Shown: one piece after another, positions 2,405 to 59,669 of the stretch | How positions within the stretch are numbered: the stretch's first letter is position 1 | Layout of the letters: each line of letters begins with the position of its first letter | Assembly: GCF_030253575.1 (NCBI RefSeq) | Contig: NC_080559.1 | Span: 2,564,501 to 2,628,500, forward strand | Reading direction: 5' to 3' | DNA: 64,000 bases | Source: Rhododendron vialii | Taxonomy: Eukaryota; Streptophyta; Magnoliopsida; Ericales; Ericaceae | Translations under genes and position numbers: made by a program | Notes under the pieces: generated by a model | Told to the model about the DNA's origin: nothing | The model's database searches: none | What the model saw: only the letters and a program-made list of their open reading frames with translations

Positions 2405-5400
2405 TCATGCTATCTGCAGCAAATAAAATTAAACAATTAAGCATAGTAATACACGGTTAAAATAAATAGAGAAATTAAAAAGAAATACTCGATTGCCCTA
2501 TCAAACATTTTGACATTTTAAGAGTATCATGTGCAATTATGTACAATATCTATATCCTAGAATAGATAAACAATTACTTTTCTGCATTTGCCGACATCAT
2601 GTATCACTCCGAATGCAGTCATTCGTAGAGACGTACGGAAAGTACAACAAAAAATTTGATCAAACTAATCCTGGAGATGATTCTCGTTTTCAGTTTTGAT
2701 TTGACCGACATTCTAATTAATCTTAATGATATTTTCTTTTCACTTTTTGTGCGAGTATATCTTTTCATCACTTCCATGTTATTTTATGGCGCTTAAGAGA
2801 CCCTTTTTCACTAAACGAAAAATAAAGTCGAATTGCATGATAACTAAATCAAATAAATCTTCGTAGTTATAACATTACCATGTAAAGATAGGGGTCACTT
2901 CGACCACCTGCCCCCGACCTCTTGATCTCTTCATGCTTCAACAACCTGAAAAAAAAAGCTCACATTGTTATCAAACCAGACAACTCAATCCATAAATCAT
3001 CACCATTAACCCCAGCTTTTCCAACAACCTAGTATTCTGATCCAACTGTTATTAAGCTCCATGACTTCATCTGAGGTGAATCCACTGCACTAACGATCAC
3101 TCAATATAATTTTGAATCTGCCATATGGCCCATATCTGTGGGGCCCTTTGGTATGATCAACAGTTAAGAGTACCTAAGCTTCTCTAATCTCTTCAAAAAA
3201 AAAAAAAAAAAGCTTCTCTAATCTTAGCTAGGGAGAGATCAGTGGTCTTGGGAGAGAGAGAGAGAGAGAGAGCAAAAATGCTAGGGGACACAAATACGGA
3301 AGTGCACATTTTCACCATGAGAAATTCACATTTACTTAAGTTCCCATGAATTTCTAATTGGTCACTCGCGGGTAGAAAGAGTTTATATTATTACACACTT
3401 TTTTCTCGTAAATCGTAGTTTAATTGATCGCGGTTTGATTAGTATTGCTTATTTAGCCGCTACTCTTTAGTTTTCTATTGGTCCTGTCAACTTAGGATCC
3501 AAATGCGAGATTTACTTTAGATTTAGACAGTACATAAACAATATGGAATCGGTAACCATCTTTTTACTTATCATTGTTCGAATTTGTGGGCCTCCAATTG
3601 TGCCTATAGCTGGAGAGATCTCACTTTCTCTAGGCTTTGCTAGCTTTATAGCACCGTCAAGTGTTGCTCTATAACTCTTATCTATTACACGCTAATATAA
3701 GGTTCATATAATTTATGGTAGAGTAAACATAATTGTGTTATAAAAAAGATTTTGAAGCACCATGTGACACTGGTTAAAACCCACTTAAGAAGGCCTATCT
3801 AGTGTTCTCGCAAACTTGTATTTAGGATCCAACTGCTGGATCCATTTGACTGTGAGGTGAATCCACTACAATAAGGATCACAGAACTTGGATCACACATA
3901 TTTGTGGTGTCCTTTGATCTAATCAACGGTTGAGATCATCTAACTTTTTTCTAATTTGAGAGAGAGAGAGATCTCACATTCTCAAGGCTTTGCTGGTGTC
4001 AGGGCTATCGCCTAGCAGCTGACGAATCCTCACTTCAGAAGTGGGAGTGCATCCATTTGACAAGAGCCGTTTGATGGCTTCGGCTCGGCGGCGCAGTATA
4101 CCCGGCTTGACTACCCTTGGCAGCTCCGTTTTCGAATTCCCAGCCAACGAAGCCCCCTCCTTCTTCCAACCTCCTCCTCTGCTACGCCCGGTGGAAACGG
4201 CGCTCGAGCTGCTCGACAGACACGACGACGTCGTCTCAGATCCCCGTTCCGATGAAACTCCTATTGGTTTTCCGATGGAGATCAGTTTTCTGGTGTCGCA
4301 TCTCCAGATTTTCTTCGATCGACTCTTTCGCACCACCTGCGCGTATATGAATTTACGTAAATGATTCAGAGTCCTCATAAACGAAACAGTTAGCGAAATC
4401 TGTGTTACTATTAAAAACGAGAAAGGCCTCAATATTTCATCTCTACATTATCTGTTGGAGTACTTTTGAACTTCATCAAATCGGTTCCTGATAGAAACTG
4501 AACAGAGTGCATCAAAGCAGATACTGAACTCCTCCTACTATACAAAACAAACACAGCGGAGTGCTTCTTCAAGTATAAATCAAACTCGAGATAAGATCGA
4601 CTGTGAGAGTTAATTAAAATCATCGAGAGTCAGTTAACGAAACAAAGTGAAACTACGAGTAACATTGAGCTTCATTCATCAAAATGAAGCTCTAAATTCG
4701 AAACGCAATGAGTCAGATCGTCAAATCACATCAAACTAGTCACAGCCTTGCAATTAAACTGGAAAACAGAGGGATATGAATCACGTCGATCGCCATTTAT
4801 CGACAGGAATGTAACAGAGCCTCAAATCATAAACTAACCAGTTACATCGCAAAAACAAAAACGAAGATCATTTAAAACAGAGAGTTAACTTTTGCATCAC
4901 AATGGAATCACATTGAGTTTTCTTCATCAGCAGAAATTCCTATTACAAACAGATATATTCAAGTTATGTATCCTGAATCACTGATCATATCCAAACAGAT
5001 CATCAAATCACATCAAATTCATCAGAGGCTTACATGCAAGGAATAACGGAGGGAATTTGAATTACTTCTAGTCTAGCTGAATATATTCATCAAATCAATT
5101 TCAAAATGCAGTACGCCAGAGCTTCATATCAATTCAAAATCAACAAGCGAATCGTAATCGGATTTCACCTTGAGGTTCATGTCATGACACCGAGCAACGG
5201 CAGCGATCATGCAGAGCGGACGAGCCCGAGCCTCCACCGAAGAACCGTCGTCGTTAGTCACCGTCGAAGAACTCGACCTCGAAGCACTCAACGCCAAGCT
5301 GCTCTTCTCCGAATCCACACTCAAATTGCTTTCACCGCTACAAAAATTCAGCAAAACAAGCATTTCTTAAACGAAACTGATTTGAATCTCGACTGTGAGG

Positions 5401-8500: not shown

Positions 8501-8918
8501 CAATTATTAAAATATAAATTAACTCGCTTTACATATATATACTAGCGTTTTCATAAATTAACGTGAAATAAAAAAAAGGGAAAAAAAAGGTGCAAAAACA
8601 ATATGGGGTCCCCGCAACACCAAACTACAAGCAGTTACATTGAAGCTTAAGAAACACACAGTCACCATCTGTCTGTCGGCAACCACCATCTGATCTCCCA
8701 AGTCTGTTGCAACTTGCAAGTGTGGTTATGTCTTCGATGAGAGAGAAATAGAGAGAGTTCTAGAGTGAGAGACCACACGTTTTTCTCTTCGGAGCGATAG
8801 CCAGAAAACCCAGAAACCGAGAGAGTCAACTTCAGAGTGAAGAGAGAGAGAGAGAGAGAGGGAGAGAAAAGGGACAGCAGCATTCGTGTATAGTTTTACC
8901 AGTACTCGTGTTGATTCA
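5513..8918. other. Intergenic spacer with degenerate repeats; promoter side of both flanking genes
   Basis: This lies between two divergently transcribed genes, so it should hold both promoters, but no specific element can be assigned with confidence. It contains a MITE at 6051-6165 and two stretches of the plant repeat type rich in GATCGGATCGG or GAGCTCGGCTCG (about 5770-5940 and 6395-6600). Two similar stretches of about 100 bases occur around 6960-7060 and 7140-7250 (TATCC(A/G)TGTCCGATAAA followed by a tract ending CAAGATGAACGGTTCA). A GA run lies at 8841-8862, just upstream of the STELLO start, probably in its 5' UTR. Confidence 0.5.
6051..6165. mobile_element. Short MITE with AGGCTCCGTTC-type termini
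   Basis: The left end AGGCTCCGTTCTGCTAAGG followed by TTCTTATTTTTT is mirrored at the right end by AGTACTTATTTTTCTTAGCG then AAACGAGTCT. The element is about 115 bases. Its termini resemble those of the element at 47627-47865, so the two are probably related hAT-type MITEs. No clear target-site duplication. Confidence 0.5.
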
Positions 8919-11900
8919 ATGTTGGTCCAAGATCGTCCAAACCCAAAATCCCCCAAAACCCACAACAACAACAGCAACAGCAGCAACAGAGCCTTGCCCA
9001 CAGTCCACCCGAATCGATTCTCCGAATCCAAATCGCTCGATTTCTCCACATGGGCATCCGAGAACCTCTACAAGATCGTCACCATCCTCCTCCTGATCGC
9101 CACCGTCGCCGCCCTCTTCTTCCTCCGCAACGTCGGCGACACGGCCGCGCTCCTCTGCTTCGAGTCCCAGTCCCAGCAGCTCGAAACCATCCACTTCCCC
9201 AAAATCAACTGGAACTCGATCGAGCCCATTGTTGACAAAACTACCCCTTACGCCAATTTCCGATCCGAGAAGTGGGTGGTCGTCTCCGTATCGGATTACC
9301 CCTCCGATTCACTTAAGAACCTCGTGAAAATCAAAGGATGGCAAGTGCTTGCAATTGGGAACTCCAAAACGCCGTCGGATTGGAGTTTGAAAGGTACTAT
9401 ATTTCTGTCTCTAGAACAGCAGGCTCAGTTAGGGTTTAGGGTTGTTGATTTCTTGCCTTATGACTCGTACGTTAGAAAGACAGTTGGGTATTTGTTTGCG
9501 ATCCAGCACGGTGCGAAGAAGATCTTTGATGCCGATGATCGCGGGGATGTGATAGATAATGATATTGGGAAACACTTTGATGTGGAATTGGTTGGGGAGG
9601 GGGCTAGGCAAGAGGTTATTTTGCAGTATAGTCATGAAAACCCTAACCGGACCGTTGTCAACCCGTATGTTCATTTCGGGCAGAGGTCCGTTTGGCCTAG
9701 GGGAATGCCGTTGGAAAATGTGGGTGAAATTGGGCACGAGGATTACTACACGGAGGTGTTTGGTGGGAAGCAGTTTATACAGCAGGGGATTTCGAACGGG
9801 CTTCCGGATGTTGATTCGGTGTTTTATTTTACCAGGAAGTCTGGTTTGGAAGCATTCGATATTAGGTTCGATGAACGTGCTCAAAAAGTGGCATTGCCAC
9901 AAGGTATGATGGTGCCTGTTAATTCTTTCAATACGCTTTACCATTCGTCTGCATTTTGGGCTTTGATGTTGCCTGTTTCAGTTAGTACCATGGCTTCGGA
10001 TGTATTGAGGGGCTATTGGGGACAAAGGCTTTTGTGGGAAATTGGTGGTTTTGTTGTTGTTTATCCTCCCACAGTTCATAGATACGATAGAATTGAAGGG
10101 TACCCATTTTCAGAAGAGAAAGATCTTCATGTGAATGTAGGTCGTCTAACAAAATTCTTGGTTTCGTGGAGATCGGGGAAGCATAGATTGTTGTTTGAGA
10201 AAATTTTGGAGTTAAGTTATGCAATGGCGGAGGAAGGTTTTTGGAGTGAGAAAGATGTGAAATTTACTGCGGCATGGCTTCAGGACTTGCTTGCTGTTCG
10301 GTATCAACAACCTAGGTTAATGACACTTGAATTGGACCGACCAAGGGCTACTATTGGTCATGGGGATAGGAAAGAGTTTGTTCCTCAGAAATTGCCCTCT
10401 GTTCATCTCGGGGTTGAGGAAATTGGTACAGTGAATTATGAGATTGGAAATTTGATCCGGTGGAGGAAGACTTTTGGGAATGTGGTGCTTATAATGTTTT
10501 GCAGTGGGCCTGTTGAACGGACTGCTTTGGAATGGAGATTGCTTTATGGAAGGATATTCAAGACTGTTATTATCTTGGCGGTGCAGAAGAATGAGGATCT
10601 TGTTGTCGAAGAAGGCCGCTTGGACTATCTATACAAGTAAGTTTATCACTTCTTTTTCCTTATGCGTTCTCATGATTATGCAATGTAATTCGAGTCTTGG
10701 CTATGATCTCTGATTGACTGCTGAATATCTGTTGAGTTTATCACTTTGGGTAGCCAAGGAGCAGGAAGTTGGTTAGATACAATGTTGTGAGATTATGTCT
10801 GACATGAATGGTGATATAGGATATGGATAGATTTCAGTGTAGGGTAATATAGTGGTAGCTATTTTGAGGCATCATATTTATTTACCGGGTTCATTTTTTT
10901 CAAGTTTAGATCACAATGTTTAAATTTATGGACCTAATAAGACTAGTGAAGTAAATACGCTCTTTTACTCTCTGGAATGTACTGTCAATATATTTTAGCT
11001 ACATAGATGATTGGTACAAGTTTTAGCGCACAATTGTAACTGCACCGACTGCCGAGTTTGTGACATGGTTCAGCCTCTGTGATCATTAAGGATACTGTGG
11101 TATAAAGCTATTGGAGGTTAGAGCCAAGATGTAGGATGGAAGTTGAGGGTTGCAATAAATAGGGGCTATTGACTCCCTTGGATAGCTAAGGATTTGTTGT
11201 TGAGCTCGTTTCCTCTGCTTGATCTTTTAGGATAATATGGTATCAGAGTTTTGATTTCTTTCTATGTATTAATGTTTGCATGTTCACGTGTAAAATGGGG
11301 TCCACACAAGAGAGGATGTCTACTAGCTCGATATACATTCTTGGGCCATATCCTAAAACCTTGTCCTTTTGGGCAATTAGTGCCCTCACAACATCTTCAT
11401 CTGCATTACACTGGAACCTTAAAGCTTTGAAACTCCTGTACTACACGATTGAATGCATACCTACTTTGTGGTTTTCGTGCCCTGGGGGATACCAAGATTC
11501 GAACTTAAGGAAAATGCTAGGTTTGGGACTTTTTGATACCTATCTTCCAGGATTCGAACTTCAGGCGATTCTCATAGCTTGTGTTCTTTATAATCTGAAG
11601 GTCATTGATTGTGTTTCGGTCAAGAAGCAGAAAGAAAGAACAATAGTTTTAAAATATGATTATTTGTCCCACATTGGTTAGCTAAGCTTTGTAATGAGTT
11701 ATCCTTTAATATAAATAAGAGTGGTTTGTGTTGGGTTTAATTAACACCCTAAACACTTTGATTACCTTTCAAAACAAAAAATAGGTTACCTTCTTGCTTG
11801 GAGAAGACAACTGGATTCGATGATCAACAAACTTAGACTAGGTCCTTCAGGATCCTCGTAATTATTTATACTTTGCTCATGTATATGAGGACCTAGTTTT

Positions 11901-28381: not shown

Positions 28382-29538
28382 GGGAAAATTTCATATTAGC
28401 ACCTGACATTTAACACAAATCACACATAGATACCTGATCTTAACTAAATATTACATAAACACTTGAAGTATAAAGAACTCATCAATTAAACCCCTACCGT
28501 CAATCTCCGTCCAAAAACAAATAGAAAACATGTTTCTCTCTTCAATTTTGCTACGTGCACTGATTTTTTTTCACAGATTCTGCACATTTTTTTTTGCGGC
28601 CCATTTTTTGTGTCCCACACATATTATCCGATCCATTGATTATGTCAAAATATTTTTTTGAGAACCCTTGCAAAAAAACAGTTCCATCAGATAAATGTAA
28701 GTGTATGATCCAATCATACAACTTTTTATTCAGAATTTCAAATTAAAATTCTACATGAAAAGTTGTAAGATTTGATCTGACACTTACATTTATCCAGTTG
28801 AGCTGATTTTTTATAGGGTCATGCAAAAAAAAAAAAGAAGATTAATGAGCAGATCGGTTCACTTTTGGCCAGATTTAAAAAAAAATTTGTAATACAAATC
28901 CTTTCTTATGCATTATTATTTTCCTTTTTTCTTTCCTGCATAGTGTTGAGTTGTTTTTTTTAATTTATTTTTTTCCAGAGCAACTTACACTACCTAGTGT
29001 ACCTACACAAATTAGTATTGCATAGATTTTTTGTGGGGTCCACTTTTAAGTCCCTAAAAATGATCCGATCATTTCATTAGTTTTAAAATATTTTTTGCGT
29101 GACCCTATAAAAAAATCAGCTCAACAAATGTAAGTATTTGATCCAATCTTACAACTTTTTATTCAAAATTTTAATCCAGAATTATGAATGAAAAGCTGTA
29201 CGATTGGATCATACACTTACATTTATTTTTTGGAGTTGATTTTTGCAAGATCGCTTGAAAAATTATTTTAGAATTAGAGAACAGATCGGAATAATTTGTG
29301 TGGGACCAAAAAATAGACCGCACAAAAAATTTGTGCAAAATATGTGGAAAAAAAGTCAATGTGGGTAGCAAAATTGGAGAGAGAAACATGTTTTCCGTTA
29401 GTTTTTGGACGCAGGTTAACGGTATGGGTTTAATTGATGAATTTTTTAATACGTCAAGTGTTTATGTGATGTTTTGTTAAGACCAAATGTCCATGTGCTA
29501 TTTATGTGAAAAGTCAGGTATTAATATGAAATTTTCCC
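28382..29538. mobile_element. Nonautonomous long-TIR Mutator-like element with perfect 9 bp TSD
   Basis: Bounded by identical TAAATAATC at 28373-28381 and 29539-29547. The left terminus GGGAAAATTTCATATTA is matched by the right terminus TAATATGAAATTTTCCC, and the inverted similarity runs inward for at least 350 bases. That includes the mirrored AAAACATGTTTCTCTCT block and a TGTAAGTGTATGATCCAATC block that is itself palindromic. No transposase frame is present. Long inverted repeats with 9 bp duplication are the hallmark of MULEs. The element is 1,157 bp. Confidence 0.88.
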
Positions 29539-30817: not shown

Positions 30818-33800
30818 ATGGCCAGTACTAGTAGTGAAGCCCCTCCCTCATCACCTCCTGAAACTCCAACCATCAACAATTCTACCAAAACCAAATCCAT
30901 CTTCTCCATTCGATCGTATTTTGTAGCAAACTTAAAGGCCAAATTTTGTGTCTCCAAACTCAAACCGGTTGACAACAGCCACCACAATGCAGCAGCTTCC
31001 AGCAGTGCAACCACCAAACCAAATGACCACCACAATGCAGCAGCTTCCAGCAGTGCAACCACCAAACCAAATGACCACCAGGGGGAAGATCTTGCCCCTT
31101 CTTCTGAATTAGCGATCCCTAATGATCTCCTCCTCGTTGACTCAGCCTTGAAGAATTACACGGACCATATGACCGATCAAATCAACCTCGCCCGTGACAA
31201 GTTCAAGGAGCTACAACAAAACTCACGGAGCAGTGAAAGAGACTTTGAAGAACTCCGAAAGGCCATCGTGAAGCTCAAGTTGCAGATCCCTACGCAGGTG
31301 AATATCCTTTCAACCACCAGCAAAGACGATCACCACGGTGGAGCAGCTCTTTCCCCCTCTTCTAAACTGATGCATAATGATCTCCTCCTCGTGGATTCGG
31401 CCTTTGCCGAGACAAAGGAGTACATGGACCATATGAGTGAGAAAATCAACCAGGCGCATGAGAAATTCAAGGAGCTACAAATGTTACCGAGTAGTCCTGA
31501 GAGAGAATTTGACGTTACACAAAAAAAGAAGAAGAGAGAATTTGATGAACTACGAAAGGCCATCAAAAAGCTAAAAGTCCAGATCCCTTCGCATGTGAAA
31601 TTCGGTTCTGCTGATTCCAACCGACATCGTAACCGGTGGCCTAATATAAACGAGGCCGAGGATGGAATGACGCACTTCTTCTACAAGGAGCCATGGGTTC
31701 CGTTCACTAGTGGTTATCATATCCAACGCCTATTGGAAGCTTTTCATGACCTCTCTGACCCATTACGTTGGTGTTTGTTATGCTTCTTCAGATTCCCACC
31801 AGAGGCAACTATAAAGAGAACAACGATGATTTACCTTTGGATAGGGCAGGGATTTACTTCCTGGCATCTACCCCGCATTGAAGAGGATGAAGGCATTAGG
31901 ATCTTTGATGAGCTTATAGAAAAGGGCTTCATTGAGCCTGTCTATCAAAATTGCTCATTGGTGCCAGACAGTTGTAGGATGAGCCTTTCTGTTCGTTCTT
32001 CTTTACACAATGCAGCTGAAGGTAGTGGATTTACTTCAAATGACACTCTTGATCTTGATTTTGGTTTTGTTTGTTGTAATCCATGCGATTATGGGAAGTC
32101 ATGCCTAATCAATGTTGGTGAGGCCATTATTAATTGCGGGCCTGAAATATTTGAGAATATGAAGTTTATTCGAAGTCTTTATCTCGGAAGGTGGCAGAAC
32201 TCAGCTATGCACCACATTGAACTAGCAAATCCCAAAATTCTTCATGGAGTGAAGAATCTGTTTTTGTTAGAATTTCTTAGCCTTCGAGGAATTTCTATGA
32301 TTACAGAACTTCCAACAGCCATTTTAGAGCTCAAGCTTTTGAAGATCTTAGATTTACGAGCTTGTCATAATCTTGAGGTGATTCCCGACAACATCAGTTT
32401 GCTCAAGAGACTGACACACTTGGACATGTCTGAGTGTTACTTTTTAGAACACATGCCCAAGAGTCTTGCTCTACTATCAAGACTCGAAGTCCTTAAGGGA
32501 TTCTTGATTGGAGATTTCAACAACAACAAACAATCATGTACTCTTCACGATTTGTCAAGACTACGGGAGTTGAGAAAACTTAACATTTACGTAAGAGTGA
32601 AAGACTTTCACAGACTTTGGGACTTTGATGATTTAAAAAAATTTCAAGGCCTGCAAAAGTTGACCATATCATGGGGAGGATGCTCTTTACAAGGTGAAAG
32701 CAGCAGACAAATTCAAGAAGAAGCAAGCATGGAACTTCTCAAACAGGGCCCTCTAACACTCCCTCCCGGATTGCAGAAACTAGACCTTCAGTGTTTCCCT
32801 ACAGAGCGTCTAACCGATTGGTTAAGGCCTGCTGAAATAAAGGAACTAAATAAACTCTACATTAGAGGCGGGCAACTAAGTGACCTAGGACAATCACAGA
32901 AACACCAAGGGGAGCACTGGAAAGTGAAGATATTGCGTTTGAAGTACTTGAGCAAACTAGCAATAGATTGGAGGGACTTGAGGAGATCATTTCCTGAATT
33001 AGTTTACTTGCACCAAGTAGAATGCCCCAAGTTTACTAACTTCCCGTGTGATGAGAGTGGTGTATGGATGGAGAAGAATGCCATATATATTCAGGAGCAG
33101 CTACAGAAATACCAGAATTACTCCATCAAACGATTTTCCATTGACCGATCGCATCTGTTTCGGTTACAATTTCTTAGCCTTCGAGGAATTTCTACGATTA
33201 CAGAGCTTCCAACAGTCATTTCAGAGCTCAATCTTTTGACGATTTTAGATCTACGAGCTTGTCATAACCTTAAGGTGATTCCCAACAACATTGGTTTGCT
33301 CAATCGATTGACATGCTTGGACATGTCCGAGTGTTACCTTTTGGAACACATGCCCAAGAGTCTTGCTCAACTATCAAGACTTGAAGTCCTTAAGGGATTC
33401 TTGATTGGAGATTTTAACAACAACAAACAATATGCATGTACTCTTCACGATTTGTCAAGACTACGGGAGTTGAGAAAACTTAACATCTACGTAAGAGTGA
33501 AAGACTTTCACAGACTCTGGGACTTCGATGATTTAAAAGAATTTCATGGCCTGCAAAAGTTGACAATATCATGGGGAGGATGCTCTTTACAAGGTGAAAG
33601 TGGCAGACAAATTCAAGAAGAAGCAAGCATGGAACTACTCAGACGGGGCCCTCAAACACTTCCTCCCGGATTGCAGAAACTAAACCTTCAGTGTTTCCCT
33701 ACAGAGCGTCTAACCGATTGGTTGAGGCCTGCTGAAATAAAGGGACTAGATAAACTCTACATTAGAGGAGGGCAACTAAGTGATCTAGGGCAATCACGGG

Positions 33801-34030
33801 ATCACCAAGGGGAGTACTGGGAAGTGAATACATTGAGTTTGAAGTACTTGAACGAATTAGCAATAGATTGGAGAGAATTTAGGAGATTATTTCCCGAATT
33901 AGTTTACTTGCACCAAGTAGAATGCCCCAAGCTTACTAACTTCCCTTGTGATGAGAGTGGTGTGTGGTATCTATTCAGGAGCGCGCAGCTCCAGAAATAT
34001 CTTTGGCTAACAGATAGGATCAGTTGTTGA
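30818..34030 (+). CDS. NB-ARC-less coiled-coil/winged-helix/LRR protein with duplicated LRR block (1,070 aa)
   Basis: Single open frame. Order: a Ser/Thr/Pro-rich start; a perfect 16-residue duplication (HHNAAASSSATTKPND, residues 55-86); two related charged helical modules (about 90-157 and 180-257, each with LLLVDSA...KFKELQ...LRKAI.KLK.QIP); a winged-helix segment (CLLCFFRFPPEATIKRTTMIYLWIGQGF, about 319-346); then LRRs. The LRR block at 486-750 is repeated almost exactly at 785-1050, an offset of about 300 codons. No P-loop (GxGKT), GLPL or MHD motif exists, so this is not a working NB-ARC switch. It resembles the plant group annotated 'disease resistance RPP13-like protein 4', some of which have this same layout. 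An intracellular immune role is inference. The C-terminus after the second block is short compared with the first block's junction. Paralogue: 57474-59669. Confidence 0.9.
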   Translation: MASTSSEAPPSSPPETPTINNSTKTKSIFSIRSYFVANLKAKFCVSKLKPVDNSHHNAAASSSATTKPNDHHNAAASSSATTKPNDHQGEDLAPSSELAIPNDLLLVDSALKNYTDHMTDQINLARDKFKELQQNSRSSERDFEELRKAIVKLKLQIPTQVNILSTTSKDDHHGGAALSPSSKLMHNDLLLVDSAFAETKEYMDHMSEKINQAHEKFKELQMLPSSPEREFDVTQKKKKREFDELRKAIKKLKVQIPSHVKFGSADSNRHRNRWPNINEAEDGMTHFFYKEPWVPFTSGYHIQRLLEAFHDLSDPLRWCLLCFFRFPPEATIKRTTMIYLWIGQGFTSWHLPRIEEDEGIRIFDELIEKGFIEPVYQNCSLVPDSCRMSLSVRSSLHNAAEGSGFTSNDTLDLDFGFVCCNPCDYGKSCLINVGEAIINCGPEIFENMKFIRSLYLGRWQNSAMHHIELANPKILHGVKNLFLLEFLSLRGISMITELPTAILELKLLKILDLRACHNLEVIPDNISLLKRLTHLDMSECYFLEHMPKSLALLSRLEVLKGFLIGDFNNNKQSCTLHDLSRLRELRKLNIYVRVKDFHRLWDFDDLKKFQGLQKLTISWGGCSLQGESSRQIQEEASMELLKQGPLTLPPGLQKLDLQCFPTERLTDWLRPAEIKELNKLYIRGGQLSDLGQSQKHQGEHWKVKILRLKYLSKLAIDWRDLRRSFPELVYLHQVECPKFTNFPCDESGVWMEKNAIYIQEQLQKYQNYSIKRFSIDRSHLFRLQFLSLRGISTITELPTVISELNLLTILDLRACHNLKVIPNNIGLLNRLTCLDMSECYLLEHMPKSLAQLSRLEVLKGFLIGDFNNNKQYACTLHDLSRLRELRKLNIYVRVKDFHRLWDFDDLKEFHGLQKLTISWGGCSLQGESGRQIQEEASMELLRRGPQTLPPGLQKLNLQCFPTERLTDWLRPAEIKGLDKLYIRGGQLSDLGQSRDHQGEYWEVNTLSLKYLNELAIDWREFRRLFPELVYLHQVECPKLTNFPCDESGVWYLFRSAQLQKYLWLTDRISC

Positions 34031-34263
34031 GGGAGAGTTAGAATCTTGGCTGTAAATTACTCCAAGTGGAGCCTCCCCAAGCAAGGTAATTCTCCCATGG
34101 CTTCTTTATCTTGTATTATTTCATGTTCTTCCTCTCCCATGGCTGTAAGTGTATGTATAGTCGAATCATATTTGTTTTGAGTTTTGATTGTCCATTTCTT
34201 TCAAGACAAGTATAATGACTTCAGATGATTGTCTAATTTAGCTGATTTGTATGAGAGTTTTTT
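34031..34263. other. 3' flank of the LRR gene, shared with 53.9 kb
   Basis: The segment near 34215-34260 (ATTGTCTAATT.AGCTGATTT..ATGAGA) matches about 53903-53938. The match resumes after the Cassandra insertion at 34920 and runs to about 35023. This shows that a flank was duplicated and that the retroelement entered only this copy. No gene. Confidence 0.6.
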
Positions 34264-34919
34264 TGTGACATCCCGCTTTCCGGTGGCTGGCGGTACTGCA
34301 GGATAGCAGGCTCCATCCGGACGGGAGGGGGCAAGTCAAGGTTTATAAGAAAAGATCTCTCCTACTTGTACAAGGCCTTTTAAAGCCATGAGGGCGGGCC
34401 AAAACGCATAGGAACTTCATAGTTAAGCGTGCTCATCCTGGGGTAGTCCAAGGATGGGTGACCTACTGGGAAGTCTATGGGCTTTGGACGTCCAAAACGG
34501 ACAATATTGTACAAAGATGGAGCGGGTCGTTACAAAATGGTATCAGAGCCCCGCCCTGGGCAAAGTGGTAGGTAGGATGCGCTCAGCTGCCACAGACCCA
34601 GGGGGGGTTGCTAGGCTTGTGCAACGAGGACGTTGCATCCTTAAGGGGGGTAGATTGTGACACCCCGCTTTTCGGTAGCCGGCGGTACTACAGGATAGCA
34701 GGTTCTGTCCGGACGGGAGGGGGCAAGTCAAGGTTTATAAGAAAAGATCTCTTCTACTTGTACAAGGCCCTTTAAAGCCCGCCCCAAAGCTCATAGGAAC
34801 TTCACAGTTAAGCGTGCTCATCCTGAGGTAGTCCAGGGATGGGTGACCTACTGGGAAGTCTACGGGCTTTGGACGTCTAAAGCGGACAATATTGTATAAA
34901 GATGGAACAGGTTGTTACA
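34264..34919 (+). mobile_element. Complete Cassandra TRIM retrotransposon with 5S rRNA-like LTRs
   Basis: LTRs at 34264-34534 (271 bp) and 34656-34919 (264 bp) begin TGTGACA and end GTTACA. The primer-binding site TGGTATCAGAGC is at 34538-34549, and the purine tract AAGGGGGG is at 34643-34650. The interior is about 120 bp and noncoding. Each LTR contains GTTAAGCGTGCTCATCCTG followed by GGATGGGTGACCTACTGGG and AAGTCTA, i.e. the 5S rRNA segment that carries the internal RNA polymerase III promoter. That defines Cassandra. The LTRs differ by several substitutions and a deletion (GCCATGAGGGCGGGCC region), so the insertion is not very recent. No clean target duplication is visible. A near-identical empty flank exists at about 53900-54050. 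Confidence 0.95.
34415..34485 (+). ncRNA. 5S rRNA-like segment in the left Cassandra LTR
   Basis: GGAACTTCATAGTTAAGCGT (34411 on) through GGATGGGTGACCTACTGGGA then AGTCTA reproduces the 3' two-thirds of plant 5S rRNA, including the intermediate element and box C. The equivalent in the right LTR lies at about 34796-34864. In Cassandra this part can be transcribed by polymerase III; whether this copy is active cannot be read from the sequence. Confidence 0.75.
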
Positions 34920-49952: not shown

Positions 49953-52157
49953 ATGGAGATACTAGCAAGGTGGAAGTTGCGCTGGGAAACGTGGGATCTC
50001 CGGGTTGTGATCCTCATTAGTCTCAGCCTACAAGTCCTTTTGATATTCCTTGCACCTTTGAGAAAACGAGTGTCAAAGGCTTGGATAACCATCCCCATAT
50101 GGTGTGCGTACTTGCTTGCAGACGCAACAGCTACCTTTGCTGTGGGACTCATTTCCAGTAGTCAGGGTCACACCTCTGGCCCTTTCACTGATCCGACCCT
50201 TCTGGCATTCTGGGCTCCCTTTCTATTGGTACACCTTGGGGGTCCCGACACCATTACAGCTTTTGCCCTTGCGGATAATGAGCTCTGGCTCAGGCATTTC
50301 CTGGGTCTGGGATTCCATTGCTGGGCTGTCGGTTATGCCTTCGTTCAATCATTTCCGAATCACAAGCTTTGGATCCCCACCTTGTTCATATTTCTGGCTG
50401 GAGTCATCAAGTACATTGAGCGAACACGTGCTCTCTATCTTGCTAGCTCTCGTATAATCAAAGACTCTTTTCTCACATATCCTGATCCTGGGCCTAACTA
50501 TGCGAAGTTCATGGATGAGTACACTTCAAAGAAGCAAGCAAAACTTCCGACGGAGATAGAGATTATCCCTGAACCTAGTAGTAGGAGCAACAATACAGGA
50601 AATGACGAAGCCAAGGGAGATGACTTGTCTTGTTTGAAGGTGGTACAAACTGCTCACAAGTACTATACCACTTTCAAAGGTCTGGTTGCGGATTTGATCT
50701 TCAGCATCAGTCAGCGCAACCAGAGCCGAGATTATTTCCTCAAGCAAACGGCAGGAGATGCTTTCCATATTATTGAGGTAGAACTCAATTTCTTCTATGA
50801 GATTCACTACACTAAGGCCAGGGTGATGCAAGGTAGGTTTCTTGGATATCACCTTGGATATCCCCTTCGGATAATTTCGTTTAGTTTGACTTGTGCAGGC
50901 CTTGTGCTTTTTTGTTTAATCGAGAAGAAGAAATTTCATAAGTTTGATATTGCAGTTTCCTACACGTTGCTTTATGGTGCTATTGCTCTCGATTTAATAG
51001 CTTTTTTAATGATCCTTTACTCTGATTGGACTGCTGTGGCCCTCACTAATTCAGAACACCCCAATTGGTTTATTAAGATCATGCAATGCTTGCTCAATGT
51101 TAATAGGGTAAGGTGGCCTAAAAACCCTGGACAAAATCCCAAATGGTTTTCCTTCAGGAAGATCATGCATATTGTGCGTCTCAGGTGGTCTGAATCTCTC
51201 TCACAGTACAACTTGATAAATCATTGTCTGCACCCACGTAAGGAATGGTGGGAGAAAACTATTGCTTTTTTTAGCCTAACCAACATGCTAGATGGGATGG
51301 AATATGTGAACCCTGTGGTTTTCAACACTGGGTTGAGAGATTTTATTTTCGATGAGCTGAAAATGAAATCTAAGCAGGCAGACGATTTAGAAACGGCCAA
51401 GGAGATATTTTCTGCCAGAGGGGATTGGATTCTACGGTATGAAAGTCGTGCCAACTTACTCTGTTGGATCAATGATGTCGAATTTGATGAGAGCCTAATT
51501 CTGTGGCACATTGCCACTGAACTCTGCTACTATGACCCAGAAGATGTCCAAGACAAAAATGATAACCGCGAGTTCTCTAAACACCTATCGGATTACTTGT
51601 TATACTTGCTAATTGTGCAGTCCACAATGTTATCCAATATAGCAGGTATTGGGCAGATAAGGTTCAGAGATACTTGTGCCGAGGCCAAGAAATTCTTTCG
51701 TGAAAGGAATGTATTAGCGGAAGAGAAGAAAATTGTCACCTTTTGCAAATACTTCTGCTGCTGCTTTAATAAATGGTGCTTCAAAGGGAAAATGGAACTG
51801 GAGGATGAATTATTAAAGGAAAATGCTTGCAGAAATATCCTTGAGGTTAATACAGAAGTTGAACCTATTGCTGTTAAGGGAGACAGAAGCAAATCTGTGT
51901 TGTTTGATGCGTGCAGGCTGGCCAAAGAGCTGAGGAAATTAGAAAGGCTTGAAAGGTGGAAGATAATAAGCAAAGTCTGGGTTGAATTGATGTCCTATTC
52001 AGCGGGTCATTGCAGAGCCCATACCCACGTGGCACAACTCAGTAAAGGTGGACAGCTCCTCACTTTAATATGGTTGTTGATGGTTCAACTTGGCTTAGGT
52101 GATCAATTTCGAATAAGAGAAGGGAATGCAAGGGCGAAACTGATCGTGAGCAAGTAG
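49953..52157 (+). CDS. DUF4220/DUF594 multipass membrane protein (734 aa)
   Basis: Intact single-exon gene. The N-terminal half has four or five hydrophobic segments (about residues 18-36, 47-67, 83-105, 117-132, 139-152) and the DUF4220 signature WAPFLLVHLGGPDTITAF then ALADNELWLRH at 87-115. Two more hydrophobic segments lie at about 304-323 and 333-358. A cytosolic domain follows, ending in the DUF594 region (about 640-730: FDACRLAKELRKL, then WVELMSYSAGHCRAHTHVAQ and LSKGGQLLTLIWLLMVQLGLGD). These domains occur together in a large plant-only family of unknown biochemical role, often single-exon and in tandem groups; only one copy is seen here. The ATG lies shortly after a GA-rich leader. 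No defects seen. Function unknown. Confidence 0.95.
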   Translation: MEILARWKLRWETWDLRVVILISLSLQVLLIFLAPLRKRVSKAWITIPIWCAYLLADATATFAVGLISSSQGHTSGPFTDPTLLAFWAPFLLVHLGGPDTITAFALADNELWLRHFLGLGFHCWAVGYAFVQSFPNHKLWIPTLFIFLAGVIKYIERTRALYLASSRIIKDSFLTYPDPGPNYAKFMDEYTSKKQAKLPTEIEIIPEPSSRSNNTGNDEAKGDDLSCLKVVQTAHKYYTTFKGLVADLIFSISQRNQSRDYFLKQTAGDAFHIIEVELNFFYEIHYTKARVMQGRFLGYHLGYPLRIISFSLTCAGLVLFCLIEKKKFHKFDIAVSYTLLYGAIALDLIAFLMILYSDWTAVALTNSEHPNWFIKIMQCLLNVNRVRWPKNPGQNPKWFSFRKIMHIVRLRWSESLSQYNLINHCLHPRKEWWEKTIAFFSLTNMLDGMEYVNPVVFNTGLRDFIFDELKMKSKQADDLETAKEIFSARGDWILRYESRANLLCWINDVEFDESLILWHIATELCYYDPEDVQDKNDNREFSKHLSDYLLYLLIVQSTMLSNIAGIGQIRFRDTCAEAKKFFRERNVLAEEKKIVTFCKYFCCCFNKWCFKGKMELEDELLKENACRNILEVNTEVEPIAVKGDRSKSVLFDACRLAKELRKLERLERWKIISKVWVELMSYSAGHCRAHTHVAQLSKGGQLLTLIWLLMVQLGLGDQFRIREGNARAKLIVSK

Positions 52158-57473: not shown

Positions 57474-59669
57474 ATGGCCAGTACTAGCAGTGAAGCCCCT
57501 CCTCCCCCATCACCTAGTGAGACTCCAACCATCAACAATTCTACCGAATCCAAACCGCTTGAGAACGCAGATCAAAAAGGTAAAAAACCGCTTGAGAACA
57601 ACCACCACAATGCAGCTTCAAGCAGTGGAATAACCAAAGAAGATGACAACCACGGTGGAGCTCTTTCCCTCTCTTCTGAAATGATCCAGAAGGATCTCCT
57701 CCTCTTGGATTCGGCCTTGATGAAGTACATGCACCATACATATGGGAAAATCAACCAGGCCCGTGAGAAATTCAAGGAGCAACTAAAATTTCCGAGTACT
57801 GTGAGAGACTTTGACGAAGTACGAAGTGCCATCAGGAAGCTTGAAGACCAGATCCCTTCGCTTGAAAACAATCACCACAATGCAGCTTCCAGCTGTGGAA
57901 CCACCAACGAAGATGACAACCACGGTGGAGCTCTTTCCCACTCTTCTGAAATGATCCAGAAGGATCTCCTCCTCTTGGATTCGGCCTTGATGGAGTACAT
58001 GCACCATACATATGGGAAAATCAACCAGGCCCGTGAGAAATTCAAGGAGCTACCAAAATTACCGAGTAGTGAGAGTGACTTTGACGAAGTACGAAAGGTC
58101 ATCACGAAGCTTAAAGGCCAGATCCCTTCGCACCGTTCTTCCGATTCCAAATCACAACATAGGGAGTGGCCTAATATAAATGAGTTCGAAGAGGAAATGA
58201 TGCACTTCACAGAGGTTAAGCAGACGGTTGATTTGGAGGTCCTAAGGAAAATGGCTTTCAGTGATCTCCTTGAGCCATGGCATCGTTGTTTGTTATGTTT
58301 CTTTAGGTTCCCACCAGAGAAAATTATAAAGAGAACGACGATGATTTACTTGTGGATAGGCCAGGGATATATTTCCCAGCCAAATGCTGGCAAAAAGATC
58401 TTTGATGAGCTTATTGCAAAGCACTTCATCGAGCGTTGCTCCGCGGTGCCAAATAGTTGCAGGATGAAACCTTCAGTTCGTTCTTTTTTATCCGAACTAG
58501 CTGAAGGTAAGGGATTTACTTCAAATGGAGCGCCTCTTAATGGGGATTTTTTAAAGGATTGTCGTGGTCTAGCTGGGAACTCATGTCGGATCAACAGTGA
58601 GGCCATTATTAATAAAGAGCTCAAAATATTTGAGAATGTGGAGACTATCCAAAGTCTTCATCTCGGAAGGTGGCAAAGCTCAGCTAAGCACCACATTGAA
58701 CTAGAAGACATCAAAATTCTCAATGGATTGAAGAATTTGAGGTTGTTAAAGTTTCTTAGCCTGCGAGGTATTTCTATGATGACGGAGCTTCCCGCATTCA
58801 TTTTAGAGCTAAACTGTTTGGAGATCTTAGATCTTCGAGCTTGTCATAATCTTGAGGGGATTGCTGACAATATTGGTTTGCTCAAGTGTTTGACACACTT
58901 GGACATGTCCGAGTGTTACTTTTTGGAACACATGCCCAAGAGTCTTGCTCAACTATCAAACCTCGAAGTTCTTAAGGGATTCTTCATTGGGCATCTCAAG
59001 AAAAAAAAACAATCATGTACTCTTTACGATTTGTCAAAGCTGCCGAAGTTGAGAAAACTTAACATCTACACAAGTGTTAAAAAGTTTCCTATAGGGTCGG
59101 ACCTTGAAGCTTTACAAAAATTTGAAGGCCTACTCAAGTTGACAATATCATGGGGAGGATGCTCTTTAAAGGATGAAAAAAATGACGGCATGACAACAGA
59201 CTCTAGAGCAGAAGGCCTTCAGACACTTCATCTCAGACTGCAGAAACTAGACCTTCAAGGTTTCCCTATGAAGAGTCTACCCCATTGGCTGTGGCCTGCC
59301 AATCTGAAGGAACTAAAGAAACTCTACATTAGAGGAGGGAACTTATGTGATCTAGGGCAATTACAGGAACGCCCAGGGGAGAAATGGAAAGTGGAGATAT
59401 TGCGTTTGAAGTACTTGAGTGAATTAGAGATAGAATGGAACCAACTGAGGTCATTATTTCCCGAATTAATTTACTTGCACCAACTAAAATGTCCCAAGCT
59501 TACTTCCTTCCAGATTGATAAGAGTGGTGTTTGGATGGACGAAAAGGCTATTGATACTCGGTTCTGGCTGCAGAAATTCTTCAAAACCGATGGCGTCAGC
59601 TTAAGTTCTTTGGTGGGGTATGGTCCAAACTTAGCTCAGGATGATTCTAACGTTTGTCCAGTAGATTAG
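57474..59669 (+). CDS. NB-ARC-less coiled-coil/winged-helix/LRR protein, paralogue of 30818-34030 (731 aa)
   Basis: The frame opens at 57423, but ATG 57474 (MASTSSEAP) is preferred because the paralogue starts with the same residues and the sequence before it diverges after CAAAGAGC. Numbered from 57474, the order is: Ser/Pro-rich start; two nearly identical ~90-residue charged helical modules (about 41-128 and 132-219, each HHNAASS...MIQKDLLLLDSAL...GKINQAREKFKE...LRK-type ending); a winged-helix segment (CLLCFFRFPPEKIIKRTTMI then YLWIGQGYI, about 272-301); then one LRR block (about 426-690, FLSLRGIS...LDLRACHNLE...LDMSECYFLEHMPKSL). No P-loop, GLPL or MHD motif. Unlike the paralogue it has a single LRR block and a unique tail ending NVCPVD. 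It resembles proteins annotated RPP13-like protein 4; a role in intracellular immunity is inference. Confidence 0.9.
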   Translation: MASTSSEAPPPPSPSETPTINNSTESKPLENADQKGKKPLENNHHNAASSSGITKEDDNHGGALSLSSEMIQKDLLLLDSALMKYMHHTYGKINQAREKFKEQLKFPSTVRDFDEVRSAIRKLEDQIPSLENNHHNAASSCGTTNEDDNHGGALSHSSEMIQKDLLLLDSALMEYMHHTYGKINQAREKFKELPKLPSSESDFDEVRKVITKLKGQIPSHRSSDSKSQHREWPNINEFEEEMMHFTEVKQTVDLEVLRKMAFSDLLEPWHRCLLCFFRFPPEKIIKRTTMIYLWIGQGYISQPNAGKKIFDELIAKHFIERCSAVPNSCRMKPSVRSFLSELAEGKGFTSNGAPLNGDFLKDCRGLAGNSCRINSEAIINKELKIFENVETIQSLHLGRWQSSAKHHIELEDIKILNGLKNLRLLKFLSLRGISMMTELPAFILELNCLEILDLRACHNLEGIADNIGLLKCLTHLDMSECYFLEHMPKSLAQLSNLEVLKGFFIGHLKKKKQSCTLYDLSKLPKLRKLNIYTSVKKFPIGSDLEALQKFEGLLKLTISWGGCSLKDEKNDGMTTDSRAEGLQTLHLRLQKLDLQGFPMKSLPHWLWPANLKELKKLYIRGGNLCDLGQLQERPGEKWKVEILRLKYLSELEIEWNQLRSLFPELIYLHQLKCPKLTSFQIDKSGVWMDEKAIDTRFWLQKFFKTDGVSLSSLVGYGPNLAQDDSNVCPVD

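Follow-up and report, generated by a model that had tools for sequence, protein, structure and literature searches.

Results

The window considered here is a continuous stretch of 64,000 nucleotides of the Rhododendron vialii genome (C3:2564501-2628500 in a 532.6-Mb assembly of 13 contigs) which contains no N and therefore no marked gap. It carries two related genes on the plus strand. Gene A (30818..34030) is a single-frame ORF of 1070 aa, uninterrupted through all 1070 codons, and consists of N-terminal modules, a winged helix, LRR block 1, a linker and LRR block 2. Paralog B (57474..59669; 730 aa when counted from the homologous ATG) shows a gene A-like architecture with one LRR block; near its N-terminus it has a separate 270-bp tandem duplication (92%).

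The features of gene A all lie on the plus strand. The N-terminal region includes a 48-bp in-frame tandem duplication (30979..31080; 2.1 copies, 100% identical) and two modules, located at ca. aa 87-165 (31076..31312) and ca. aa 170-262 (31325..31603), which share 60% amino acid identity over 78 columns. Module 1 yielded no Pfam match over the cut-off, and its putative helices appear only in a structure model of low confidence; the prediction for gene A (two sequences) had a mean pLDDT of 38. No match to an Rx-type CC domain was found by Pfam in gene A at E<=1, a search that a diverged CC could escape. The winged helix (aa 326-388; 31793..31981) was identified as CNL-type via Pfam WH_DRP (E 2.5e-7; 31.1 bits, cut-off 27). 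NLR-type LRRs were recognized as two stretches of LRR_14 (143.7 bits, cut-off 40), and R13L1/DRL21 LRRs were likewise matched in two stretches. LRR block 1 (ca. aa 480-750; 32256..33067) occupies the ancestral position and appears to be the more constrained copy, LRR block 2 (ca. aa 779-1050; 33153..33967) the less constrained one. Between them lie the family's natural C-terminal tail, now internal in gene A as judged by the junction query and the tail alignment (33068..33117), and 35 bp at the junction (33118..33152) without a match in the junction search. The last codons and the stop (34003..34030) match sequence beyond the stops of relatives and represent former 3' UTR.

The original prediction had described gene A as combining the winged helix and LRRs of a CNL with a lack of nucleotide-binding motifs, and this description is borne out by the WH_DRP and LRR_14 matches and by all searches for an NB-ARC. 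Pfam returned no NB-ARC match in gene A at E<=1 and none in paralog B. An NB-ARC exon that might belong to gene A was sought among the 57 window ORFs of at least 100 aa, 20 of which were scanned in addition to gene A, again with no match. When all six reading frames of the window were scanned for motif patterns, no strict P-loop, kinase-2, RNBS-B, GLPL or MHD motif emerged, and a loose P-loop pattern matched three times, always on the minus strand and outside gene A. A genome-wide NB-ARC search gave none on C3 among the at least 124 matches listed (590 candidates; a diverged one could escape). Further, the 13 aligned open-frame family members, gene A included, showed NB-ARC matches in 0/13 cases (Pfam, E<=0.01), LRR matches in 13/13 and WH_DRP in 11/13. 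One NB-ARC-less member, 42% identical to gene A, is located on another contig. The missing NB-ARC is thus a trait of the family and not peculiar to gene A, and gene A is therefore not a CNL in which the switch was lost as a second sensor arose. The proposal of a receptor without an ATP switch therefore holds with respect to the missing domain, but not with respect to a loss in gene A itself. In gene A and its aligned relatives, the N-terminal modules lead straight into the winged helix in a single frame, and with this order of N-terminal module, winged helix and LRR gene A fits the genome's NB-ARC-less WH-LRR family.

Matches to gene A in a protein search filled at least 56 rows at E<=0.001 (scores for 43 of 824 candidates), and many cluster on C3 (2.59-2.96 Mb), C12 (5.57-5.93 Mb) and C6 (31.7 Mb). 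From this search, 20 loci were taken for comparison; several short or distant rows lay outside these loci, for example on C7 (4.59 and 4.73 Mb), C12 (0.60, 5.57 and 5.74 Mb) and C2 (18.13 Mb). Over a dozen copies make up the family cluster, and several are broken. Thirteen open ORFs (gene A, paralog B and 11 others) could be aligned at 42-77% identity to gene A; this set excludes L022, which is broken upstream, L023 and L026, whose open frames are shorter, and the broken or partial copies L014, L015, L016, L018, L019 and L028. In a piece-by-piece test, the first LRR part occurred once per gene copy, in 21 copies across 20/20 loci. One LRR block ending in a GVW tail was seen in these 21 copies and in paralog B but not in gene A, which has two blocks. 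Among the copies examined, gene A alone therefore carries a doubled LRR, the 20 loci and paralog B having one block each. Upstream of the L012 gene lies a separate 197-aa fragment that carries the second LRR part together with the C-terminal tail.

Different parts of gene A resemble different paralogs. By bit score, gene A is closest to L009 in the N-terminal modules (94-96%) and the second LRR part, to L010 in the winged helix, and to L012 in the middle and the first LRR part, the latter being nearly tied with L009. Synonymous divergence between gene A and L009 changes along the gene (dS 0.13, 0.42, 0.43 and 0.23), and gene A is a mosaic of paralogs. Compared with L009, L010, L011 and paralog B, omega ranges from 0.43 to 0.94 by domain, as would be expected for a coding, fast-evolving gene. 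Internal in-frame duplications were detected in 10/13 open ORFs with 17/17 listed pairs in phase, a count that is biased by the selection of open ORFs.

The two LRR blocks of gene A (32256-33067 and 33153-33967) share 91.5% identity across 815 nt, with an offset of 897 nt, a likeness far beyond chance. Aligning aa 483-750 with aa 782-1050 gave 67 nucleotide differences in 268 codons (804 sites) and one 3-nt in-frame insertion as the sole indel. The whole-block, in-frame duplication with an intact ORF of 1070 codons, for which boundaries of 486-750 and 785-1050 had been proposed, is thus confirmed to within ca. 6 residues. The block alignment and rate comparison suggested with it resulted in dN 0.066, dS 0.173 and omega 0.38 (95% bootstrap 0.22-0.65). 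The original prediction had also called the duplication recent, a term which the data qualify: the inter-block dS of 0.17 is close to the divergence of either block from paralog L009 (0.22-0.23), and the doubling is therefore not very recent. A tree built from 23 LRR blocks, which leaves out L028, placed blocks 1 and 2 as sisters (UFBoot 100), with their clade joining L009 and L016 (UFBoot 86). An origin of block 2 from another known paralog was rejected based on this tree. Identity between the blocks is higher in the middle (94.9%) than at the ends (87.2% and 89.7%). Gene conversion was rejected as a cause of the more similar middle, the scan being not significant (P 0.066 for the 240-nt minimum; P 0.49 for the longest run).

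To characterize the junction, a 151-nt query spanning it was searched in the 532.6-Mb assembly and gave five matches. Only at gene A itself did the query match over its whole length. Nucleotides 1-78 matched the L009 locus (93%) and the L016 locus (90%), nucleotides 1-74 matched one place on C6 (80%), and the last 38 nt matched the start of block 1 (92%), while the 35 nt between the flanking matches had no match in the same assembly search. This pattern places the end of the upstream copy in the natural tail, ahead of the old stop, and the start of the second copy mid-LRR. The 35-bp piece may be filler or a tail that has diverged; it still weakly resembles that of L009. Past block 2, from ca. 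34003, the matches of gene A are to 3' UTR sequence of relatives: over 109 nt that lie beyond the stops of those genes, identity is 92% to L010 and 86% to L009. The final codons and the stop of gene A are therefore former 3' UTR, taken into the frame after the old stop was lost. In the C-terminal tail of block 2, 16 nt have been lost and 4 nt gained, and a larger deletion is also present.

Three-point branch rates were calculated for both blocks with seven outgroups. Omega was 0.10-0.24 for block 1 and 0.51-1.03 for block 2, and the fraction of bootstrap replicates with a higher value for block 2 was 0.963-1.000 for 5/7 outgroups. In case of L017, the rate difference was borderline (bootstrap 0.924), and with L010 it was not significant (bootstrap 0.866; the 95% interval of the dN difference spans 0). 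The branch-rate result thus depends on the outgroup chosen. No difference in dS was detected between the two branches. When the differences were sorted by paralog B, block 1 received 15 S and 9 N, block 2 received 7 S and 25 N, and 8 remained unsorted (Fisher p 0.003). For the family, the median pairwise omega was 0.52 (78 pairs from 13 relatives that have a single block and an open LRR frame). The underlying codon set excludes L014, L015, L016, L018 and L026, L019 and L028 gave no frame, and L027 is part of the codon set but outside the 78 pairs. Block 1 seems to be held tighter than is usual for the family, and block 2 seems to evolve as a typical family member or faster. The block 2 omega of ca. 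0.5-1 is also compatible with simple decay. The probability of finding no stop in block 2 after 42-56 neutral point mutations is 0.07-0.14, and its open frame alone is therefore little proof of selection. In case of the doubled sensor surface of the original prediction, the two blocks are there, but they are unequal, with constraint apparent in block 1 and relaxation in block 2. These rates are better matched by a single retained surface next to a copy that drifts or diversifies.

Discussion

The best solved relative of gene A is ZAR1 (disease resistance RPP13-like protein 4; PDB 6j5t and others). As a single sequence, gene A aligns with ZAR1 over aa 307-752 (E 3e-30), starting just before the winged helix, and with a family profile the region from the winged helix to the C-terminus is collinear with ZAR1 aa 394-847 (E 5e-53). 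Based on this collinearity, block 1 ends at the ancestral protein end and block 2 is appended to it. In contrast to ZAR1, gene A has no Pfam-detected CC or NB-ARC, possesses other N-terminal modules and has a doubled LRR. An orthologous relationship of gene A to ZAR1 was rejected, with the resemblance restricted to the WH-LRR part and the identity of individual pieces low (25-33%). Further, a search of the genome with ZAR1 406-846 gave at least 101 matches at 25-37% identity (95 of 757 candidates scored) to ordinary CNLs and the gene A family alike, and we therefore name no ZAR1 orthologue.

In-frame LRR duplications are known from NLRs. Published cases are an intragenic duplication of ca. 150 aa in flax L/M and one of 93 aa in rice Xa1/Xo1 (PMC7004385), a 65-aa duplication in melon Vat (PMC8012345) and an in-frame LRR duplication in barley Nbs3-Rdg2a (PMC2937021). 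Flax L/M, rice Xa1/Xo1 and melon Vat are NLRs with an NB-ARC in which units inside one LRR are repeated, whereas in gene A ca. 270 aa are repeated, from mid-LRR through the C-terminal tail, in a gene without NB-ARC. Nbs3-Rdg2a is likewise an NB-LRR gene, unlike gene A. What is unusual here is the size and place of the duplicated unit, the lack of an NB-ARC and the asymmetric constraint. Our literature search on NB-ARC-less WH-LRR proteins found nothing direct, which does not show that none exists.

With regard to how such a protein may work, the solved chain of NRG1C, which we take to be locus At5g66890, weakly matches the second LRR of gene A (E 1.3e-5). According to one study, NRG1C acts as a negative regulator when overexpressed and outcompeted CC-deleted NRG1A for EDS1-SAG101 (PMC12315475). 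NRG1C is an RNL derivative, and gene A is likened to it in its working, not as a member of the NRG1C family. A full-length receptor that gene A could compete with did not emerge: no full-length neighbor of the gene A family was found on C3 among the at least 124 NB-ARC matches listed (590 candidates), and the identity of the listed matches to ZAR1 406-846 stays at or below 37%. The At5g45490/At5g45510 group may be linked to the gene A family and is a lead only. An earlier report lists At5g45490 as CN and At5g45510 as a divergent NL (PMC2175511).

The unequal rates can be explained in more than one way. In case of an inert duplication, the protein would work, if at all, through block 1 like its single-block relatives, and block 2 would be a harmless, neutral C-terminal extension that is lost at the first nonsense mutation. 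A block 2 branch omega of 0.51-1.03 over the seven outgroups points in this direction, as do the 16-nt loss, 4-nt gain and larger deletion in a tail that ends in former UTR, the lack of a comparable duplication in the other copies examined, and the neutral chance of having no stop, which at 0.07-0.14 for 42-56 mutations is not tiny. However, the frame has remained open across 268 codons with a single in-frame 3-nt indel although several sister copies are broken, and the block 2 omega lies near the family pairwise median of 0.52, so that block 2 is not clearly less constrained than the relatives. We consider an inert block 2 a possible but rather doubtful outcome. Another possibility concerns the origin of the doubling: through a deletion or unequal crossover, gene A may have been fused at its tail to the mid-LRR of gene A', a near-identical copy downstream, which would make block 2 the remnant of a separate gene. 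Such a fusion would yield a product of the same appearance, and it is in line with the 197-aa fragment upstream of the L012 gene, the mosaic nature of gene A and the family's own 3' UTR borne by the block 2 tail. It requires a second A-like copy, though, of which no other trace was found, and blocks 1 and 2 are mutually closest among the 23 blocks compared. We think a fusion somewhat unlikely, while noting that the same picture results from tandem duplication within the gene and from fusion with a near-identical neighbor that has since been lost, and that the cluster favors either.

Near-identical repeats are prone to misassembly, and a published account advises caution for short-read assemblies (PMC7004385), so two alleles or paralogous reads could have been merged into one gene. 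Against such an assembly or haplotype artefact stand the 67/804 differing sites between the blocks, the unique junction and the divergent tails, as well as a window free of N in an assembly of only 13 contigs for 532.6 Mb, and we deem it very improbable. The CNL-type winged helix and LRRs would also suit a canonical CNL whose NB-ARC exon was overlooked because it is spliced in. Here, the N-terminal modules continue into the winged helix in one frame in gene A and the aligned relatives, no NB-ARC match exists in any of the 13 members or in the 20 scanned window ORFs (of 57 of at least 100 aa), and the six frames of the window lack a strict motif. Based on the ORF and motif scans, the genome-wide NB-ARC search and the family comparison, this explanation was rejected and retains next to no probability.

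The reading that we moderately favor is that of a tandem, in-frame 3' duplication in an NB-ARC-less WH/LRR family, with the resulting protein probably serving as an adaptor or competitor that is no ATPase and retains the ancestral contact through block 1. Gene A belongs to a tandemly clustered family without NB-ARC that is kin to ZAR1 in winged helix and LRR. After the split from the nearest paralogs, its 3' half, from mid-LRR to the C-terminal tail, would have been duplicated in tandem, with the upstream end point falling, in frame, ahead of the old stop within the C-terminal tail. Translation would then continue via ca. 30 residues of tail and linker into the second LRR block, the tail of which would later have lost the old stop and now end in former 3' UTR. 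A replication error or unequal exchange is the likely source, in a cluster marked by exchange between paralogs and by frequent partial in-frame duplications.

While the anatomy, the singularity of gene A among the copies examined, the sister relationship of its blocks and their unequal rates are observations, its function is what we infer from them. The protein is presumably produced. Because it has no NB-ARC, it is not expected to switch or to assemble a resistosome by itself, and it may instead bind partners via the block 1 LRR as an adaptor, competitor or decoy, in an NRG1C-like manner. Block 2 would be an additional arm, tolerated and partly relaxed, which is perhaps diverging towards another contact; that it has a function at all is possible, though the less probable case. 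A bolder proposal, which we regard as unlikely, is a two-armed LRR protein with arm 1 bound to the ancestral partner and a linker-attached arm 2 free to diversify. One ATPase-less protein could thereby bridge or sample two ligands, and partial duplications in frame, at both ends of the genes, would let the cluster as a whole produce modular adaptors of this kind.

Regulatory roles are possible for NLR-derived proteins that lack a functional nucleotide switch, as recorded for NRG1C, and families like that of gene A are missed by surveys that start from the NB-ARC. The doubled LRR additionally represents an internal control, as the same domain is present twice in one protein under seemingly unequal constraint. 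Gene A therefore makes it possible to ask directly which contact has been retained, and if a spare sensor arm acquires a new one.

Besides the in-frame duplication of the LRR block at its 3' end, gene A (the winged-helix/LRR gene without a match to NB-ARC) carries a perfect 48-bp tandem repeat close to its start, also in frame (30979-31080), which is a third internal duplication of this gene and appears to be young. In paralog B, which has a single LRR block, the N-terminal module is itself duplicated in tandem and in frame (270 bp, 92% identity; 57589-58131). At L017, another locus of the same genome with members of this family, the 5' end of a family gene is present twice, in frame, at the N-terminus (L017:2294-2840). 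The two copies are offset by 261 nt and are 75.5% identical over 286 nt, and the repeated unit includes a few codons positioned upstream of the start codon of relatives. This 5'-end duplication is the mirror case of the doubling seen in gene A.

Repeats were also observed on both sides of gene A. Directly downstream (34263-34919), a segment of ca. 270 bp occurs in two direct copies with 91-92% identity, lying ca. 390 bp apart, which are perhaps the remnant of a mobile element. Upstream (28382-29538), nested inverted repeats with an arm complementarity of 75-85% may represent a foldback or MITE-like element. Elsewhere in the window we found a single-frame DUF4220/DUF594 gene of 734 residues (49953-52157), a 584-residue ORF partially matching STELLO glycosyltransferase (8886-10640) and, on the minus strand, an ORF ending in a match to the HTH_74 three-helical bundle (78 bits; 3974-4444).

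Over 30818-33115, gene A has the appearance of a mosaic. When it is compared with the family member at locus L009, synonymous divergence is 0.13 at the N-terminus, 0.42-0.43 in the winged helix and middle and 0.23 in the LRR region, and this change along the gene points towards exchange among paralogs.
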